Below are positions 4,534 through 28,030 of a stretch of 28,030 nt of DNA, piece by piece. Made by a program: the position numbers and the translations under genes. How positions within the stretch are numbered: position 1 is the stretch's first letter; the number at the start of each line of letters is the position of its first letter. This DNA comes from a virus: positions 1-28,030 of IMG/VR virus record IMGVR_UViG_3300037233_000026; one strand, 5' to 3'. The notes beneath the pieces are model-generated. The model searched no databases. It saw only the letters and a list, made by a program, of their open reading frames with translations, and had not been told where the DNA came from.

Positions 4534-5786
4534 AGCGATCCCTCTACATCCTCGTCTCCATAATCGTCGCCATTGCCGGGCTGATCGTCTCATTGCCGGT
4601 CATCATCGCTGATGCTCAGGGCCAAACCCTCCCCGTAACTGTCACAGTCCAGCCCCCAACGCGGCCAGTCGCTCCACTCCTGCCATCCGGCGATAGAACC
4701 GGCAAGCTCGACACGCTGGCAATCGACACCGCTTGGTACAACGGTAATGACGTGCTGCTCGGAATGGGCGCGTGGTATCTCAACTACGCCCACCGCCCGG
4801 CCCACGCGTCTCTGGACGGCGCGAATGAATATCTGACCGTCATCGTCCCCGTTGGTGGCTGTCAGGATGCGATTCAAGGCACCGTGCTTGGCTCGGGCGT
4901 TCCAGCGTCGATGCGTGAAACTCCGGGCGTCAACGATGGTGGACACATTTCCAACCTGACGTTCGATTCCACCACCGCACCCAACACGAATCTCTATCAC
5001 GAAGATGCTCTTGAGCCGCAGTTAAATTACTCGAATCTGCGGATCATCCACGGCAACGGACCGGTTTGTAATTCGCCGGGCGCGACTTCCACCAACATCG
5101 AATTTATCCACGGCAGCTTGCAAACGGACAATAACTACGCCAAATATTCCTATCTGGCTTGGTATGGGATGCCGGACAATGGCATGAACGAATGGCAATT
5201 TGGTGGCGACGGAATCAGCGTTGCCCATGTTCTGTTCCAAGACACGCAGCGGGCGATTGTATTCCACTCGGAAACCAGCAATGTGTCGTTTCTGGATATT
5301 GATTGCGAGTCGGTCAACGCCGGGCCGACAAACGCCAATGAGGTGATCCTCGACGAGACTTTGGCCAAGGTGCAAAACGTTCTTTTCGATCAGCTTCAAG
5401 TCCACAATTGCCGTGGCTCTGCTTTCGATCCCGGCACACTTGGCTTCATTAACAACAAAATCACCCACTTCGATATTTTGGGCGGAGAGGGGATTACGTT
5501 CGGCTACAAGAATAATGCTGCGGCGACTTCCACAGGGAACGTCTTTAGCGAAGGGCAGATGACTGACTGCGGAACCTTCGCATTCTTCGGCAGCGTCGGT
5601 AACTCCGTGGATCATCTGGCGATCATCAATCCAAAGCCAACGTGGGGCAATCAGCAGCAGACGGAGCTTGCGAACTACGGGCCGCAGACGTTCTTTGTCG
5701 GTGCGGCGGGGAACACGATTGATCCGCAGACGGTGACGGTAGTGGGATTGCCGGTGGGGTGGAAACTGGGATCGAACGGTCAATAG
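4530..5786 (+). CDS. Beta-helix-like protein with signal peptide
   Basis: The 418-residue protein starts MKRSLYILVSIIVAIAGLIV, followed by a second hydrophobic part and ADAQGQ. This is a classic signal sequence with a plausible signal peptidase I site after ADA, or an uncleaved membrane anchor. A Pro/Thr linker follows, then a region of short repeated beta strands (HISNLTF, YSNLRII, VSFLDIDCES, VQNVLFDQLQVHNC) typical of a right-handed beta-helix. Virion spikes normally assemble in the cytoplasm and carry no signal peptide, so export is odd. Possible roles are modifying the host surface, or a spike that was captured from a secreted host enzyme. Confidence 0.6.
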   Translation: MKRSLYILVSIIVAIAGLIVSLPVIIADAQGQTLPVTVTVQPPTRPVAPLLPSGDRTGKLDTLAIDTAWYNGNDVLLGMGAWYLNYAHRPAHASLDGANEYLTVIVPVGGCQDAIQGTVLGSGVPASMRETPGVNDGGHISNLTFDSTTAPNTNLYHEDALEPQLNYSNLRIIHGNGPVCNSPGATSTNIEFIHGSLQTDNNYAKYSYLAWYGMPDNGMNEWQFGGDGISVAHVLFQDTQRAIVFHSETSNVSFLDIDCESVNAGPTNANEVILDETLAKVQNVLFDQLQVHNCRGSAFDPGTLGFINNKITHFDILGGEGITFGYKNNAAATSTGNVFSEGQMTDCGTFAFFGSVGNSVDHLAIINPKPTWGNQQQTELANYGPQTFFVGAAGNTIDPQTVTVVGLPVGWKLGSNGQ

Positions 5787-9320: not shown

Positions 9321-10130
9321 ATGACCATCAACCTCACTATCAATCCATCCATGGGGTCAATATCAGCGGTGTCGTTAAACTCGCTCGCTGATATTTTCGG
9401 CAACACGCCATCCGGCTTCATCTCGCCGGCCGACTTCGCAAATATAGGTGGGAATAACTGGCAATATGCGTTCGCCGGAACAAGCGTAAGTTATAACTTC
9501 ACCTATGCCCTCACTACAAGCGGTGGAATTGGAATAGGCGTCTTCTCGGGAACAACCCAGGGTGTGGTTGGCTATCAAGGTCGTTACATCAACAGCACGA
9601 TTCTCAATCAATATCTCGGCTCGATCAACGTAGCTATCCAAAGCGATGCAGACAGCACGGGTCAGTCCAACTCGCTCGCCATACAGCAGTGCATCATGGG
9701 CGCCGAAGATGAGTGCGACGGAATAATCAGCCCCAGTCCAAACGGTAGAATGTGTGAGTACAACGTGCCGCTAAATTTTGGAACCAATTCAATCAACGCG
9801 GCGCTACAGCGCGTGTTATGCCAACTGGCTGGAGCGGATCTGTACGACAAGCGAATGCTGGTAAGCTCATCCAAGAAATCATCGGTTCCGTGGGGTAATA
9901 TCCGTGACCGGGCAATCAAGTGGCTGCGTAGCGTGGCGAATGGTGATGTATCATTACCAGGGGCTGCCACAACTTCGGTATGTACTGCGCCAACTGGTGG
10001 ATTCCAGACGGTTGATCCGGTTGGACGAAGGATTGCTCCGAATGGCGCACCGCTATATCCGTTTGGATGGAGCTTTGGAACCTTCGCATTAGGTCAATGG
10101 TGGGGGGCTGGATTTGGGTGGTGGGCATGA
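9321..10130 (+). CDS. DUF1320/gp36-like adaptor fused to an N-terminal beta domain
   Basis: The protein has 269 residues and begins immediately after the fibre stop. The first about 105 residues are beta-rich. From about residue 106 the sequence reads as a helical adaptor: SNSLAIQQCIMGAEDECDG, a 'VPL' turn, INAALQRVLCQLAGADLYDKR, then DRAIKWLRSVANGDVSLPG. This resembles DUF1320 (Mu gp36-like) connector proteins, in which helices with a Tyr/Arg pair precede a 'G.. L' end. The C-terminus is aromatic and Gly-rich. Connectors usually follow the capsid gene; here it sits before the small terminase, so it could also attach fibres. The family match is by eye only. Confidence 0.45.
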   Translation: MTINLTINPSMGSISAVSLNSLADIFGNTPSGFISPADFANIGGNNWQYAFAGTSVSYNFTYALTTSGGIGIGVFSGTTQGVVGYQGRYINSTILNQYLGSINVAIQSDADSTGQSNSLAIQQCIMGAEDECDGIISPSPNGRMCEYNVPLNFGTNSINAALQRVLCQLAGADLYDKRMLVSSSKKSSVPWGNIRDRAIKWLRSVANGDVSLPGAATTSVCTAPTGGFQTVDPVGRRIAPNGAPLYPFGWSFGTFALGQWWGAGFGWWA

Positions 10131-10564
10131 AGTTTCCCAGTTTATCCCATAGAAAAAGGGCGTTCCTCGCGGCGTTTGCCGAATGCGGCGTTATCTCTCG
10201 CGCAGCAACAGAATCAAAATGCAGTCGCCGCAATCACGTTCGCTGGCTTGAGGAAGATGGGGAATACGCGATCGCATTTGCAGAGGCGCACGACGAAGCC
10301 AACGATAAATTGGAGAGTGAAGCTCGCCGACGTGCGCATGATGGCTTGCTCAGGATGAAATTCTATCAGGGCGCTGCGATCATTGATCCGCGAACGAATC
10401 AGCCATACGTCGAACATGAATACAGCGACACGCTGCTGATGTTCCTGCTCAATGGCGAGCGCCCGCAAAAGTTCAAGCACAACGTGGACATGACCAGCGG
10501 CGGCAAGCCAGTTAATTTCACCTTGAACATCGGTAATCGAGACAGTGGAAGCGATCCAATATAG
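10127..10564 (+). CDS. Terminase small subunit
   Basis: The start at 10127 (ATGA overlap with the previous stop) gives 145 residues and removes an unlikely upstream extension. Residues 18-44 (AECGVISRAATESKCSRRNHVRWLEED) form the helix-turn-helix typical of small terminases, including the 'vs.AA...gvsr..v..W' pattern. A conserved 'LLMFLLNGERPQKFKHN' segment near the C-terminus (from about residue 104) is characteristic of this group. The protein recognises viral DNA and recruits the large subunit. It overlaps the large terminase gene by 20 bases. Confidence 0.8.
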   Translation: MKFPSLSHRKRAFLAAFAECGVISRAATESKCSRRNHVRWLEEDGEYAIAFAEAHDEANDKLESEARRRAHDGLLRMKFYQGAAIIDPRTNQPYVEHEYSDTLLMFLLNGERPQKFKHNVDMTSGGKPVNFTLNIGNRDSGSDPI

Positions 10565-11771
10565 CCGTCCCAAACTCTACGAAGCTCAACGAAAATTCGT
10601 AGACTGCGAAGCGAGATACACAATCGTTGAGGCCAGTACAAAAGCTGGCAAGACCGTGGCTTGCCTCGTGTGGCTTTTCGAGATGGCCATTAAGGGGAAG
10701 CGCGGTCAACATTTCTGGTGGATAGCTCCGATCTTTCCGCAGGCCCATATTGCTTACGAGCGACTAAAGAAATGGCTGAACGATTCGGGACTGGGTCGCG
10801 AAGTTTGGAGAGCCAACGAAACAAAGCAGCAGATAGAAATCGGGGGGCGATATATCGACTTCAAAGGCGCTGATGACCCCGACAGCTTGTACGGTGAAGA
10901 TGTTCAAGCCGCGGTCGTTGATGAAGCAAGTCGGTGCAAGGAAACCGCGTGGCATGCGCTACGGTCAACGCTCACGGCGACAAAGGGTCCGGTCAAGATC
11001 ATCGGCAACGTGCGAGGTCGAAAGAATTGGGCCTATCAGCTTGCCCGTAAAGCAGAGTCGGGCGAACGCGACATGGCTTACTTCAAGTTAACCGCGCAAG
11101 ATGCGGTTGACGGCGGCATATTCAGCCAGGCAGAAATCGAAGATGCCAAGCGTATGCTGCCCGCTGGTGTATTCCAAGAATTGTATTTGGCCGAGCCATC
11201 TGATGACGGCGGTAATCCATTTGGTTTGAAAGCCATAAATGCTTGCCGGATAGATAAGCAATCCATAGCTCCGCCCGTCTGTTACGGTATCGACTTGGCT
11301 AAAAGCGTGGATTGGACATGGATGATCGGGTTGGATCGGGATGGTGTTGAGTGCGCGTCTAATCGCTGGAAATCAGATTGGGGCCAGACACGAACACGGA
11401 TCATAGACGACACCGGATCGGTTCCAACACTGGTTGATAGTACGGGCGTGGGCGATCCCATCGTTGAGGATTTGTGCCGGGCCAAGATGAGTATTCAGGG
11501 CTTCAAGTTCTCATCCAACAGCAAACAGCAATTGATGGAGGGTTTGGCGGCCGCGATACAACAGGGGCGAGTGAGATTCGCGGACGAATTGCTTATCAAT
11601 GAGCTTGAAACATTTGAGTATGAATTTACGGGGCGTGGCGTGAAGTATTCAGCGCCCGAAGGACTTCACGACGACGGCGTGTGCGCGTTGGGACTGGCTG
11701 TTCGGCAGATGGAAGAACCAAAATACGCGATGGACTTGAACTTTTCAGGAATGCTGGCGAAGGCGAAATGA
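10545..11771 (+). CDS. Terminase large subunit
   Basis: The 408-residue product uses a GTG start inside the small-terminase gene. The ATPase part shows a Walker A-like segment at about residues 30-37 (ASTKAGKT) and Walker B at VVDEAS with D126-E127. The nuclease part shows the RNase H-like acidic triad candidates D250 (GIDLAKS), D298 (VDSTGVGD) and D376/D377 (HDDGVCA). This motor cuts concatemeric DNA and pumps it through the portal. The length is at the compact end for the family but all motifs are present. Its stop overlaps the next start. Confidence 0.92.
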   Translation: MEAIQYSRPKLYEAQRKFVDCEARYTIVEASTKAGKTVACLVWLFEMAIKGKRGQHFWWIAPIFPQAHIAYERLKKWLNDSGLGREVWRANETKQQIEIGGRYIDFKGADDPDSLYGEDVQAAVVDEASRCKETAWHALRSTLTATKGPVKIIGNVRGRKNWAYQLARKAESGERDMAYFKLTAQDAVDGGIFSQAEIEDAKRMLPAGVFQELYLAEPSDDGGNPFGLKAINACRIDKQSIAPPVCYGIDLAKSVDWTWMIGLDRDGVECASNRWKSDWGQTRTRIIDDTGSVPTLVDSTGVGDPIVEDLCRAKMSIQGFKFSSNSKQQLMEGLAAAIQQGRVRFADELLINELETFEYEFTGRGVKYSAPEGLHDDGVCALGLAVRQMEEPKYAMDLNFSGMLAKAK

Positions 11772-12163
11772 ACACTGAAAGAATTTGCATTGCTGGTGGT
11801 CCATCGGCAGGAAAAACGACATATGCGATGCAACTTAGTACAGATGTCATTTATCACACGGATGATTTGATAGAAAATCACAGTTGGAGCGAGGCTAGTC
11901 AAATAGCCTCTGAATGGTTCAATGAGCCAGGGCCGTGGATCGTGGAGGGCGTTGCGGTTCCGAGGGCATTAAGAAAATGGCTGGCCGCAAATGAATCAAA
12001 AAAGCCATGCGACAAAATTATTTGGATGAATGGATCATTTGTGGAACTATCGCCGGGTCAATCGGCAATGGTTAAAGGATGCAAAACGGTTTGGAATGAA
12101 ATTGTTGATGATTTACATAATCGAGACGTTGAAATAGTCGAAATAGGAAATTCTGAAAAATGA
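11768..12163 (+). CDS. P-loop kinase-like protein
   Basis: The ATG at 11768 (ATGA overlap) gives 131 residues. Walker A is residues 10-17 (GGPSAGKT). HTDDLI (about 35-40) resembles the Asp pair that binds substrate in nucleoside/nucleotide kinase-like P-loop proteins, and IVEGVAVPRALRKWL (about 58-72) fits the following helix. The usual Arg-rich lid is not evident. The gene looks more AT-rich than the terminase and portal genes on either side, with many AAA/ATT codons, which suggests later acquisition. It could phosphorylate a nucleotide or another small molecule, or assist packaging; only the P-loop is certain. Confidence 0.65.
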   Translation: MNTERICIAGGPSAGKTTYAMQLSTDVIYHTDDLIENHSWSEASQIASEWFNEPGPWIVEGVAVPRALRKWLAANESKKPCDKIIWMNGSFVELSPGQSAMVKGCKTVWNEIVDDLHNRDVEIVEIGNSEK

Positions 12164-21910: not shown

Positions 21911-22360
21911 ATGGCTTCAAACCCAAAAACAGGTTTTCTTGCCACCTTCGCGGTCGGCACAAACGAGCTTGATACGATCAGTTGGACGATCCGCCAGACA
22001 ACGCAGAAGGTCGATTCAACCAGTTCAAAAAGCGGCATCTATCCTATCCCGCTGACAACCTATCTTGGCTTCATGGCTACGATGGTGTTTAACACGGATT
22101 TTTCCAACCCAACATTTTCTGGTGGGCCTACCATCGGCGTTCAAACGGTGCTGACAAACCTGAACTTCTACCAGTTGCAGGCTGGTGGACGCGGGGCGCT
22201 GGGAACGATCACTACTCCGAGCAGCAATACAAACCCCGGCTGGACGGCAACCCTTGGGACCGTGCTGGATATTACCGATGGTGTCAACGTAGCGGGAACG
22301 GCAATCCAGAGGTATTCGATGATTGTGCAATGTTACGGCGTCATAACTACCCCGTACTAA
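21911..22360 (+). CDS. Probable tail tube (major tail) protein
   Basis: The 149-residue product begins after GAGG at 21898-21901 and stands directly before the chaperone pair, where the tail tube gene is normally found. The N-terminus (GFLATFAVGTNELDTISWTIRQTTQKVDSTSSKSGIYPI) reads like tail tube proteins, which start with a beta strand followed by a Ser/Thr loop. The C-terminal ATLGTVLDITDGVNVAGTAIQRYSMIVQCYGVI is strand-rich. The call rests on position and general pattern. Confidence 0.5.
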   Translation: MASNPKTGFLATFAVGTNELDTISWTIRQTTQKVDSTSSKSGIYPIPLTTYLGFMATMVFNTDFSNPTFSGGPTIGVQTVLTNLNFYQLQAGGRGALGTITTPSSNTNPGWTATLGTVLDITDGVNVAGTAIQRYSMIVQCYGVITTPY

Positions 22361-22372
22361 TTGGAGGATCGC

Positions 22373-22870
22373 TTGGCAGAATTACAAGATTTAGCTGGCA
22401 CGGATATTGATTCCTTTCCGGGCCACACGCTTTCACCACTGACGTTGCCAGACCTGGCATTGGCTGAACGGCAATCAGCCAATCAGTACATACAGAGGAT
22501 GGAAGAGGCGGTGTCTTTGTTCTCTCCGGAAGTGGCGGAAGTATACCGCGTTCGCGCTGCTGATAACGTGAAAAACACCTTCACCATCGGCTATCCTAAT
22601 TTTGATTCATGGGCGAAGTCCAGCGCCGGCTTGTTCTTTCTCGCGTGGCTCAGCTTTCGCAAGACTGAACCGAAGATGACGTTCGGTCAGGCGACGGAAA
22701 TTTGCAGTAAGATGGGGTGGAGCAACCGTAGTGCTATTCTGTCTATGGCGGGCTACAACTTCCCAAAACCCGTAGCCGCGCCGGTACAGAACAACCCACA
22801 AGCTGGACAATCGCCTATCGACTCTGCGAGCCAGCCCCAGTCGGACGCGGCTACTCCTACGATCAAGTAA
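22373..22870 (+). CDS. Tail assembly chaperone (G-type)
   Basis: GGAGG at 22363-22367 stands five bases before a TTG at 22373, giving 165 residues; an earlier TTG at 22361 overlaps the ribosome site itself and is unlikely. The protein is charged and helical up to about residue 130 (SWAKSSAGLFFLAWLSFRKTEPKMTFGQATEIC), then ends in a Pro/Gln/Ser-rich tail. Position directly before the tape measure, and a slippery heptamer at 22762-22768, identify it as the shorter product of a G/GT chaperone pair. Confidence 0.7.
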   Translation: MAELQDLAGTDIDSFPGHTLSPLTLPDLALAERQSANQYIQRMEEAVSLFSPEVAEVYRVRAADNVKNTFTIGYPNFDSWAKSSAGLFFLAWLSFRKTEPKMTFGQATEICSKMGWSNRSAILSMAGYNFPKPVAAPVQNNPQAGQSPIDSASQPQSDAATPTIK

Positions 22871-23118
22871 ACTCAATGTCACTGGCTCAGATTCGTCACG
22901 CCCTGGGCGGCGATCCTGAACCAGACGTGTTTGATTTCTTGAATGAGCATCGCAACACGGCGCTCATGAAAATAGCAAAGCGATTGAACATTCTCCCCTA
23001 TCAACTCCTGTCTCTACCCACCCAAGACGTTATTTCGCAACTTGAAGCGGAAGGCGTTTTTGTCCTGACACATCAGCTAGAACAAATCCTTATAAACTTT
23101 ATTAACGGAGATAAATAA
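22373..23118 (+). CDS. Frameshift fusion tail chaperone (GT-type)
   Basis: A -1 slip at C CCA AAA (22762-22768) would move ribosomes into the frame of the downstream ORF. The fusion would have 132 codons from the first gene plus 116 from the second, 248 residues in total, close to the size of lambda gpGT. The -1 frame is closed by TAG at 22729-22731 just upstream of the slip site but fully open from 22732 to the stop at 23116-23118. The newly read bridge (RLCEPAPVGRGYSYDQVNSMSLAQIR) looks like normal protein and joins smoothly into the ORF. The fusion binds the tape measure in known systems. Confidence 0.75.
22762..22768 (+). promoter_or_regulatory. -1 frameshift slippery heptamer CCCAAAA
   Basis: The zero-frame codons are TTC CCA AAA CCC, so the site has the form X XXY YYZ (C CCA AAA). 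After a one-base slip, tRNAs would re-pair with CCC and AAA. It lies 33 bases after the last stop in the -1 frame, which is the expected position. Confidence 0.7.
22876..23118 (+). CDS. T-part of the tail chaperone
   Basis: Read alone from its ATG this would be 80 residues (MSLAQIRHALGGDPEPDVFDFLNEHRNTALMKIAKRLN ...). There is no ribosome site before it. Translation is therefore better explained as the 3' half of the frameshift fusion. Its helical, mixed-charge sequence fits the T domain that contacts the tape measure. Its stop overlaps the tape measure start (TAATG). Confidence 0.6.
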   Translation: MSLAQIRHALGGDPEPDVFDFLNEHRNTALMKIAKRLNILPYQLLSLPTQDVISQLEAEGVFVLTHQLEQILINFINGDK

Positions 23119-25163
23119 TGTCGGCTGCGCCATCGGCAGTAAGCATCCTCGCAGAATTCAGGATCGGAAATAGCCAGAATTTTGACGCCGATATCGAGGC
23201 TTTGCAATCAAAGCTGGTGGCGGCGTTTGAAGGCATGTCCATTCCGATCAGCGCCGCCGTTACGGCTGGGGTGTCTGAGGCTGCGCCAGCGATACAGCAG
23301 ACGGTGGCTGCCGCTGTTGGGGCTGGGGTGTCGGAAGGGATGGCGTTAGGTGGTGGAGTTCCTGAGATGGCTTACAGCCCATTCGGATCGGTTGGTTTGG
23401 ATTCCATTGGGGGCGGTGGCGCTGGTTCGCGCCTCCCTCCCGGATTTGACATGAATCAGGATGAGGGTGGTAGTGGCATCATGGGGCTTGGGAGCATGAA
23501 TCGGATGCTGTCGGCATTCATGCTGTTGCGGGCGGCAAGATCAGCAGAGGAGTTTTATGTAAAAGACGCTGACATGCAGGAATCTGAATTCAAAGCAGAA
23601 AACATGCCGGAGAGAACGGAATCCCAACGGGCTTCAAAGTCTGCGCAAATCATCAAGACCAATCAGGCCGAGATTGATGAGAATGAAGGGTTCATGGGAT
23701 ATCTCAAGGAATCAATTCAACACGGCGGATTGATATCGGGGCTTAAATTCTATGAACTGGATCAGGGGGTTCGGAAGGAAAAGATTGGAGAAGCGGAAGC
23801 CGCTGGATCGAATGCGGAGATGAATGTTGACCAGCAAAAGGAAAGGCGCATTCAACTCGAAAACGAACTTACAAAGGCCCATTTCGAGGGCAATGAGGCT
23901 TTGGCCAAGCACCTAGAATTACAGATTAATATCAACGCCCGGCAGGAGGAAATGAACGCTATTCATGCACGTTCTGGAGATACCTTTGCATCAACCATCG
24001 GCCAAGAAATGCTCTCCGCGCAGACCGCTCGTCAACAGGGAATAAGTTTTCTTTCCACCAAAGAAGACATCCAGAGCGACGTTGATACAAATATGAGGTC
24101 TGATATCGATCTGCTTCGCAGCGTCGGACGTGGCGGATCAGCCAATCGTGCAGAATTTGAGATAAAGCACAATGAGGAACGCGAAAAATTGGTGAATGAT
24201 ATTGAGCGAATGAAGATGCCCAATTCGGGGGCAACGCGCGATCAATTGAATTCAGCCGAGAGCCGTCTGGGCGCACTCGACAGAACATGGCCTGCGGATA
24301 TAACAGCCTTCAATAACAGCATCAACCAAAGCACCAAGTATATTAACGAGCGCACGAGTGAATTAACTCTGGAAAACAGCGGCAATATTTTGGCGGCCGA
24401 GCGACAACGGATTGAGTATCAAACCAACAAGGCGGCAGAGGATGCGGATGATGGAACGCCATCCGGTAAATCCAGAGCGGCGGCGATTCGTGGCGAGGGC
24501 GCGGCAGAGGAACAACATCTACATGCTGGCATCCGCCTTGAATCCCCCATGCAGGCATGGCTGGGTATGCAGCACTCCGCGATGATGTCACACCCAGCAC
24601 ACGCCGCCACAGCGGAAACCAACCCGCACAAGCCCGGCACGAAAGCGTATCAGGAGTGGGAGACACAGAAGCACATCCGCGAAACGAACGCGGCGCATCA
24701 CCCAGGAATTTCCGGACCTCACCCCGACGCCTTTTTGAACATGCACGCGCAGAATGAAGCCACCCACAAATATCTGCATGGTCTAACCGCCGGACAGGAG
24801 CAGAGCATCCACGATCACGGACTAGGCTACGCATCGGCCCATCGCGATTCGTGGGAGACAGAATCAAAGCGACAGCACGACGCGGCGATGGGAAGGGTGC
24901 ATGACGCACAGGAAAAGGGCGTACAGGACCGGATAAAGCACGCGCACGAATTTGATGCTGGACTATTGGATCATGCGCACATCAGCCCACCGTCAATGCA
25001 GTTTGGTCCGCACGGAGAACGATTGGGCAGCGGCCCGGCATATGCGCCGGGCGATGCCGCTGGGCATCCATCCATTGCGGCGTCAACCGCACAATCGCTC
25101 AACAACGCCGCCAGAATTTTAGAGAAGTCCGCGCCCCATATCCTCATCATGCAACCCAACTGA
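23118..25163 (+). CDS. Tape measure protein
   Basis: The 681-residue product follows the chaperone pair, is Ala/Gly-rich at the start (VSEAAPAIQQTVAAAVGAGV), and then has long charged helices with heptad spacing (about 150-470), as tape measure proteins do. By the known relation of about 0.15 nm per residue the tail would be about 100 nm. The last about 215 residues are unusually rich in His (about 25), for example AAHHPGISGPHPD, IHDHG and KHAHEFDAGLLDHAH, and show no lysozyme or peptidase motif. The gene is translated from an ATG overlapping the chaperone stop. Confidence 0.75.
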   Translation: MSAAPSAVSILAEFRIGNSQNFDADIEALQSKLVAAFEGMSIPISAAVTAGVSEAAPAIQQTVAAAVGAGVSEGMALGGGVPEMAYSPFGSVGLDSIGGGGAGSRLPPGFDMNQDEGGSGIMGLGSMNRMLSAFMLLRAARSAEEFYVKDADMQESEFKAENMPERTESQRASKSAQIIKTNQAEIDENEGFMGYLKESIQHGGLISGLKFYELDQGVRKEKIGEAEAAGSNAEMNVDQQKERRIQLENELTKAHFEGNEALAKHLELQININARQEEMNAIHARSGDTFASTIGQEMLSAQTARQQGISFLSTKEDIQSDVDTNMRSDIDLLRSVGRGGSANRAEFEIKHNEEREKLVNDIERMKMPNSGATRDQLNSAESRLGALDRTWPADITAFNNSINQSTKYINERTSELTLENSGNILAAERQRIEYQTNKAAEDADDGTPSGKSRAAAIRGEGAAEEQHLHAGIRLESPMQAWLGMQHSAMMSHPAHAATAETNPHKPGTKAYQEWETQKHIRETNAAHHPGISGPHPDAFLNMHAQNEATHKYLHGLTAGQEQSIHDHGLGYASAHRDSWETESKRQHDAAMGRVHDAQEKGVQDRIKHAHEFDAGLLDHAHISPPSMQFGPHGERLGSGPAYAPGDAAGHPSIAASTAQSLNNAARILEKSAPHILIMQPN

Positions 25164-25165
25164 TT

Positions 25166-25750
25166 ATGACAGACGACGAAAAGAAAGCAGCACAGGAGCA
25201 GGAGGCTAAATATCTTCTAGCCGCGGCTGATTCTCTAGCCAAGGCTCGTGCCGAAAATCCCAACCTTGTTGATCCGGAATTACCGAATATTACAGTACCA
25301 GAAGTAGAGTGGATTTTTCCCGGTCGCGCCCACACTCACCATCCTAACGGACACGCGAACACATTGAGGGGTGACGCTAAGCTACCACGCTATGCCGAAA
25401 AGGCTAAAGAGATGATTGCCAAGGCTGATGAACTGGACAAGGTTGAGAACCGCCAACTACGTTCTTTGTTTCGTTTCCATAGCCTGGAAGATTACAAGGG
25501 CCGACGCCGGGCAATCTACAACCTGATTTACTGTCACGGCCACCATACCGCCGTCTGGCATACCTACCCGAAAGATCAATGGTCCGAAGATGAGGCCAAA
25601 GATTTTCATGCGGCGCGGATAAACCATCCCGATTTCAAGAAGCCCAAGATGACGCTGCATGAATTTAACCAGCACGTCAAACGGCAAATAGCAATCCAGC
25701 ATGGGGAAAATCTTGTGGCGGGGCAGAAACAACAGGAGAAAAAGTCGTGA
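25166..25750 (+). CDS. His-rich hypothetical tail protein
   Basis: The 194-residue product starts two bases after the tape measure stop. It opens with a charged helix, then has HTHHPNGHAN, a helical centre, YCHGHHTAVWHTYP (about 123-136), and several more His-containing segments; about 14 His in all. No family is recognised. Metal binding is an inference from the clusters. Its stop overlaps the next GTG start (GTGA). Position suggests a distal-tail or tail-tip protein. Confidence 0.6.
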   Translation: MTDDEKKAAQEQEAKYLLAAADSLAKARAENPNLVDPELPNITVPEVEWIFPGRAHTHHPNGHANTLRGDAKLPRYAEKAKEMIAKADELDKVENRQLRSLFRFHSLEDYKGRRRAIYNLIYCHGHHTAVWHTYPKDQWSEDEAKDFHAARINHPDFKKPKMTLHEFNQHVKRQIAIQHGENLVAGQKQQEKKS

Positions 25751-27138: not shown

Positions 27139-28030
27139 ATGGCAAACGGCGATCGCATTAAAAGTTTGAGTACGGGGAAGGCGCTCAGGAAACTGAATGG
27201 CGAATATCTCCGCCAGACTGGCACCGGTACTGGCAGTGTTTGCGGAGGGTGTGGATGCAATCAATTCCCCTGCGCCGCATGCCTTGCGTCGATGCAGAAT
27301 CTTTTGGTGGAGATTTCTGGAAACGCTTTTGGATCGGCCCTGAATGCAGCTAGTGGGTACTCCTCCTCAATTAGTACGATAGGTGGGACTTATCCGCTCA
27401 CTAACATCGGCGCGGGCTTTGGAATTTGTGATTGGTGCGGCTGGTTTCCGCTTAGCGGGCGCATCACCCGCAGAGAAGGAGCGGGCGCGCCGGATCTTTA
27501 CAAATGCGTCTATTGGCTGGGGGTGGAGGCATATTTCGATGCCAACTTAGATTTTTTTGTGTATGCGTATCTGGAGATGGATCCGCCTTGGGGTTACGGC
27601 GCAAACAATTGGTGCGTACTCTTGCCCGGTGAGGTTGCTCCAACAGGCGTTCCCCAAATGCCCTATGTTTTTGTGGGGGCCATTTATAATCAATCTGGGA
27701 CCGGAACTGGCACCGGAACCGAATCTGGCGCTCAAATTATTGAGGGTTTTTGCCTCAATCCCACGGGAACAGGAACCGGGACTGGGACCGGGACTGGGAC
27801 CGGAACAGGCAGCAAGCCCACTCCAACGTCGGTCACGGTACAAAATACTCTTGGATACACGTTACAGGGTGTTGGCATTCCCAATTTAGTGGGAGGGCAA
27901 GCCGTTTGTACTTGGGGAACGGGCACCGGCACAGGCACAGGATCGGTTTTATCCCCAAGCAGTTGTCTTACGTATCACTCGATTCCTGCTTGCTGCCCTA
28001 CCGGCACCGGAACCGGCACCGGCACTTCCA
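27139..28030 (+). CDS. Gly-Thr dipeptide-repeat, Cys-rich protein, 3' truncated
   Basis: The ATG at 27139 directly follows the preceding TAA, and the frame is open to the window end (297 codons so far). Alternating Gly-Thr tracts lie at 27217-27234, 27697-27720, 27763-27810 (the longest, 16 residues), 27916-27942 and 28000-28026. Synonymous Thr and Gly codons are mixed within the tracts, so the dipeptide pattern is kept at the protein level. Cys clusters CGGCGC, CAAC and CDWC suggest metal binding or disulfides. Globular aromatic-rich segments separate the tracts. A tail fibre or tip protein with flexible or glycosylated linkers is likely. Confidence 0.65.
   Translation, partial: MANGDRIKSLSTGKALRKLNGEYLRQTGTGTGSVCGGCGCNQFPCAACLASMQNLLVEISGNAFGSALNAASGYSSSISTIGGTYPLTNIGAGFGICDWCGWFPLSGRITRREGAGAPDLYKCVYWLGVEAYFDANLDFFVYAYLEMDPPWGYGANNWCVLLPGEVAPTGVPQMPYVFVGAIYNQSGTGTGTGTESGAQIIEGFCLNPTGTGTGTGTGTGTGTGSKPTPTSVTVQNTLGYTLQGVGIPNLVGGQAVCTWGTGTGTGTGSVLSPSSCLTYHSIPACCPTGTGTGTGTS

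Follow-up and report, generated by a model that had tools for sequence, protein, structure and literature searches.

Two adjacent open reading frames in the tail module of a virus contig, designated ORF A and ORF B, very likely constitute a tail assembly chaperone pair of the lambda G/GT type that is expressed by −1 ribosomal frameshifting. A programmed −1 frameshift joining the two had been proposed in an earlier note on this DNA, and the proposal was borne out by comparison with homologues: a slip site is present in ten of ten, and the bridge between that site and the ATG of ORF B shows conservation as protein when read in the −1 frame but none in frame 0. The window, by which we mean the whole 28,030-nt stretch of DNA that was analysed, is a 28-kb virus contig that we read as a phage infecting Phycisphaerales, a little-studied group of soil bacteria; the same phage occurs, in pieces, in a Phycisphaerales MAG.

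ORF A most likely begins at the TTG codon at 22373, with a GGAGG motif 5 nt upstream and the same start in its relatives (MSDLK/MSELQ), and ends with the stop codon at 22868–22870. It shares 34–36% identity with five full-length relatives and is mostly helical with a low-complexity C-terminal tail past the slip site; its AF2 model was all-helical and of low confidence (pLDDT 58). About 100 nt 5′ of the stop codon lies CCCAAAA, which, as originally described, is in slip phase (the ORF A frame reads ttc cca aaa ccc, corresponding to X XXY YYZ). The −1 frame is closed by a TAG at 22729–22731 and thereafter remains open for 128 codons and a stop, so that a −1 shift would yield an A+B fusion of 248 aa, identical in length to that given before. 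No other such heptamer is present in ORF A. When the codons of ORF A were shuffled, the chance of finding some in-phase heptamer in its −1-open part was 0.11–0.12, and across the 28,030-nt window CCCAAAA occurred 7 times against 5.65 expected, i.e. without enrichment. The heptamer in the window alone is thus weak evidence and not significant, and homologues were sought; it is the comparative evidence that carries weight. The ATG of ORF B (22876–22878) is located 5 nt after the TAA of ORF A and, in agreement with the remark that ORF B has no ribosome site, is preceded by no Shine-Dalgarno-like motif, while such motifs are present at ORF A (GGAGG) and at the next gene at 23118 (GGAG). Taken alone this absence is weak evidence, because several other genes in the window also lacked a motif in the same scan.

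Features of the tail module discussed in the text (positions in the window)
Feature	Position	Strand	Remarks
Upstream gene, probable tail tube protein	21911..22360	+	By position; beside ORF A in homologues
Shine-Dalgarno motif GGAGG of ORF A	22363..22367	+	5 nt 5′ of TTG 22373
ORF A, putative 'G' tail assembly chaperone, 165 aa	22373..22870	+	Relatives; remote homologues adjoin tape-measure genes
−1 open region with 'T' domain (ORF B)	22732..23118	+	Relatives' profile without the window, E=1.1e-13
Slippery heptamer C CCA AAA	22762..22768	+	In phase; slippery heptamer in 10/10 homologues
Bridge, read in the −1 frame	22769..22875	+	W, R, L, G..G and Y.Q conserved 5′ of the ORF B ATG
5′ arm (GTAGCCGCG) of possible stem	22772..22780	+	3 nt past the heptamer
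3′ arm (CGCGGCTAC) of possible stem	22846..22854	+	Pairs with 22772–22780, 9 bp
Downstream gene, 681 aa, probable tape-measure protein	23118..25163	+	By position; tape measures of remote relatives

A search with a downstream gene identified two copies of the tail module, both diverged, in genomes of Phycisphaerae (L116 and L117). Profile searches with ORF A recovered three viral contigs (L120, L121 and L122) and, from further Phycisphaerae genomes, L127, in which ORF A is partial, together with the remote homologues L125, L126, L128 and L132, giving a total of ten homologues of which six are close and four remote. In all ten, ORF A contains a slippery heptamer in phase close to its 3′ end, from which the −1 frame runs open into the following ORF. 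The sequence A AAA AAA serves in L116, L117, L120–L122, L125, L126 and L127, with G GGA AAA overlapping it in L121 and L122, while the remote L128 and L132 have C CCA AAA. The window thus differs from its close relatives in slip sequence (C CCA AAA against A AAA AAA) at an unchanged position, and across the homologues the site is kept though its sequence and the residues it encodes differ. A homologue with a separate ORF B start and no heptamer, which the earlier note had regarded as evidence against a frameshift, was looked for and not found among the ten. A phylum-wide search for further homologues returned nothing new, so the family looks restricted or rare.

The same layout and slip site in ten homologues from independent assemblies also bear on the alternative that ORF A and ORF B are one gene disrupted by an indel or by an error in sequencing. 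A broken gene would likewise appear as ORFs in two frames with conservation continuing across the junction, but an independent contig that is 99.9% identical to the window does not differ from it in either ORF, and no relative was found in which the two are fused in frame and lack a slip site. The copy of ORF A in the MAG (L103, G003:C62) was at first a candidate deletion; there an NN scaffold gap, elsewhere in ORF A, replaces 49 bases and is accompanied by junk at the contig end, and the difference is an assembly artefact rather than a variant. We give a broken gene next to no credence.

The −1 reading of the bridge was supported by several comparisons. A T-domain profile built from five relatives, with the window left out, matched the −1 frame of the window (E=1.1e-13) in an alignment that starts at nt 22771 (residue 14 of the open frame). 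This point lies one codon 3′ of the heptamer and precedes the ORF B ATG by 35 codons; the other ORFs of the window gave no convincing match to this profile. Against a profile made from the bridges of the relatives only, the −1 translation scored 11.4 bits compared with a best score of 7.7 bits in 2000 shuffles, which upholds the description of the bridge as protein-like, and the frame-0 tail encoded by the same DNA scored at random (rank 1461 of 2001). Codon positions were compared in the four nearest relatives (L116, L120, L121 and L122), which form two independent pairs and do not include the window itself. At the three frame-0 codon positions, the substitution counts were 31/3/68 for the sequence preceding the heptamer, 10/17/14 for the overlap and 51/90/64 for the stretch that belongs to ORF B only. 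The pattern in the overlap differs from that of ORF A (P=1e-8) and matches that of ORF B (P=0.93); on this comparison of sequences, coding constraint switches from frame 0 to −1 at the heptamer in these four relatives. The comparison of synonymous rates in the overlap that had been suggested gave a divided answer, with a significant drop between L116 and L121 (P=0.014) but not in the pooled independent pairs (P=0.35).

These observations can be set against coupled re-initiation, in which ribosomes terminating on ORF A would restart at ATG 22876 and no fusion would be made. The arrangement of the two genes is compatible with such coupling, as the ATG is only 5 nt past the stop codon in the window, the stop and ATG overlap in L117 (ATGA), and TTGA is found at the ORF A stop in L116, L121 and L122. 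However, W13 and L19 of the bridge, both invariant, and the GY.YDQ motif are all encoded 5′ of the ORF B ATG and of every such start, the −1 frame already exhibits the substitution pattern of ORF B before the ORF A stop, and ATG 22876 is without a Shine-Dalgarno motif. In L120 the corresponding codon is CTG; the −1 frame there opens 6 nt before the heptamer and contains no ATG, GTG or TTG until position 5570, which is inside the conserved domain. In L125 and L126 the −1 frame opens exactly at the heptamer. Together, the −1 conservation, the switch of frame and the openings in L120, L125 and L126 argue for translation of the bridge and against production of ORF B solely from its own start. Re-initiation may add some free T protein and cannot replace the fusion; as the sole explanation we consider it very unlikely.

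A change of frame could also arise during transcription, by slippage of RNA polymerase on a run of A rather than by any event in translation. Runs of 9–10 A are present at the site in L125, L126 and L127, and one study found higher frameshifting with longer A-run cassettes (PMC3711429). In the window, by contrast, the heptamer has only four A, ORF A is without an A run of at least 6, and the −1 site is in the exact phase for two tRNAs, and there is scarcely any chance that transcriptional slippage accounts for the arrangement. It is conceivable, if rather unlikely, that the mode of frame change has been exchanged within the family, some phages relying on two-tRNA slippage at C CCA AAA and others, partly or wholly, on RNA polymerase slippage over 9–10 A, the fusion and its ratio being kept.

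Ribosomal frameshifting would proceed as follows. Most ribosomes would read ORF A through to its stop codon and make the short G protein. On reaching C CCA AAA, some would slip: the tRNAs for Pro and Lys would shift their pairing one base back, to CCC and AAA, and translation would carry on in the −1 frame across the bridge and T domain as far as 23118, giving a GT protein of 248 aa. If lambda is a guide, G would coat the tape measure, and the tail tube protein would be recruited by the T portion of GT. Comparison of sequences establishes the heptamer, how the two frames relate and the −1 coding conservation; we infer the slippage, its efficiency, the function as chaperones and any part played by a downstream hairpin.

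A stimulatory RNA fold after 22768 had been put forward for examination, and here the outcome was mixed. In the window a 9-bp stem could form and the fold had a minimum free energy of −31.9 kcal/mol (z −2.7; 2 of 200 shuffles were as stable), but this stability is unexceptional in comparison with neighbouring sequence, and in the relatives z ranged from −3.2 to +1.3, with other hairpins and no covariation in the outer stem. The downstream hairpin is suggestive only as a stimulator, and some tailed phages seem to use none (PMC5009743). A conserved hairpin with a 12-bp outer stem, found 3′ of the heptamer in the relatives, is not claimed as an element, for want of covariation and because the need to encode W-R-G in part dictates its sequence.

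The assignment of the pair as tail chaperones depends on position and remote homology and not on a direct family match. The genes at 21911–22360 and 23118–25163 had no family match of their own in Pfam or PHROGs. In the remote L132 and L125, ORF A/B is followed by a gene recognised as a tape measure (it matched several PHROG tape-measure families and, for L132, Pfam TMP_3 at E=2.7e-21), and the gene 5′ of ORF A in L126 weakly matched a PHROG major tail protein (E=7.7e-4). By synteny, the pair in the window is probably located directly 5′ of a tape-measure gene. The T domains have in common the pattern G[YW][ST]..[QE][VI]..[ML][ST]...Q, identified by eye, which may resemble that of known T proteins. 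The proposal of two tail chaperone ORFs thus gained support from the position of the remote homologues, but not from Pfam or PHROGs, in which ORF A, ORF B and the T domain had no match; the closest approach was that of the L132 T domain to a PHROG tail assembly chaperone, at E=0.21 only. A tblastn search of annotated phages with ORF A, the tape measure, the gene at 25747 and the tail gene gave nothing usable, and Foldseek with AF2 models of ORF A (pLDDT 58) and the T domain (72) found no significant match and no known chaperone. As judged from sequence, the pair would work like G/GT and is not a member of a sequence family described in Pfam or PHROGs.

The putative tape-measure gene varies greatly in length, from 681 aa in the window (23118–25163) to approximately 426 aa in L145 (7657–8937), 297 aa in L144 (7337–8230) and, on the reverse strand, approximately 319 aa in L116 (about 10886–11845) and 126 aa in L117 (11645–12025). 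Despite this spread, the C-terminal end of the putative tape measures of the close relatives appears common to them. The relatives also carry a short gene, in one or two copies, on the opposite strand between the T domain and the tape measure, at 9800–10845 in L116 (reverse orientation) and 6797–7279 in L144, and the window has none; this gene encodes a hydrophobic stretch and the motif DGPGQYR..GVHK.TK.D..KY.QA.SAANA.

The slip heptamer of lambda is G GGA AAG, unlike the C CCA AAA or A AAA AAA found here. The gpG/gpGT proteins of lambda are tail assembly chaperones made via a −1 frameshift, and the likeness lies in the gene order, which here would be a probable tail protein gene, then G, then T in the −1 frame and a probable tape measure, in a heptamer near the end of G, in a T without a clear start of its own and in the G-T fusion, with no sequence similarity detectable in Pfam or PHROGs (PMC5009743). 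The gp93/gp94 chaperones of phiCbK have the same layout, with a −1 slip site before the tape measure, but the site is AAAAAAC (GGGAAAC in Colossus) (PMC3556154). The comparison with phiCbK is one of layout; no annotated phage matched ORF A. CCCAAAA itself has been described as a phage slippery site in Lactobacillus phage BH1, in the gene for the major head protein and not in a tail chaperone (PMC6950654). Of the suggestion that both the heptamer and the gene pair were divergent from well-described ones, the part concerning the proteins therefore stands and that concerning the heptamer does not.

Scans of viral contigs with single proteins (ORF A, ORF B and the capsid protein) returned only the near-identical contig, and a search with a two-sequence capsid alignment made no addition. 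A Phycisphaerae phage (G029, L109) has a capsid protein 41–42% identical to that of the window and, in reverse orientation at 10359–11050, a G-like ORF with an in-phase A AAA AAC and a −1 ORF before the next long gene, but no similarity was found between its tail genes and those of the window, a combination of capsid and tail that shows module exchange. The terminase of the window (10545–11771) is 50–59% identical to proteins from Zavarzinella, Hyphomicrobiales and many viral contigs. Its relatives are plentiful in many bacteria, and since their structural genes are unrelated to those of the window they could not be used as a test of the frameshift; the region is strongly mosaic. At the end of the contig, an ORF at 27139–28029 encodes long Thr-Gly repeats (ACCGGGACTGGG units) and possibly a virion surface protein.

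The frameshift signal is real and conserved, the frameshift itself is very probable, and its mechanism would be ordinary in kind, long known from lambda. The sequence family is new; this type of frameshift and the use of CCCAAAA as a slippery sequence were already known. A gene finder without a frameshift model would report two unrelated hypothetical proteins here, and the alignment of this unannotated chaperone family is usable by gene callers. The family further documents turnover of the slip site at a fixed position, between C CCA AAA, A AAA AAA and an overlapping G GGA AAA. It would extend the reach of G/GT frameshifting to phages of Phycisphaerae (Planctomycetota), where we found no annotated relative among tail chaperones.
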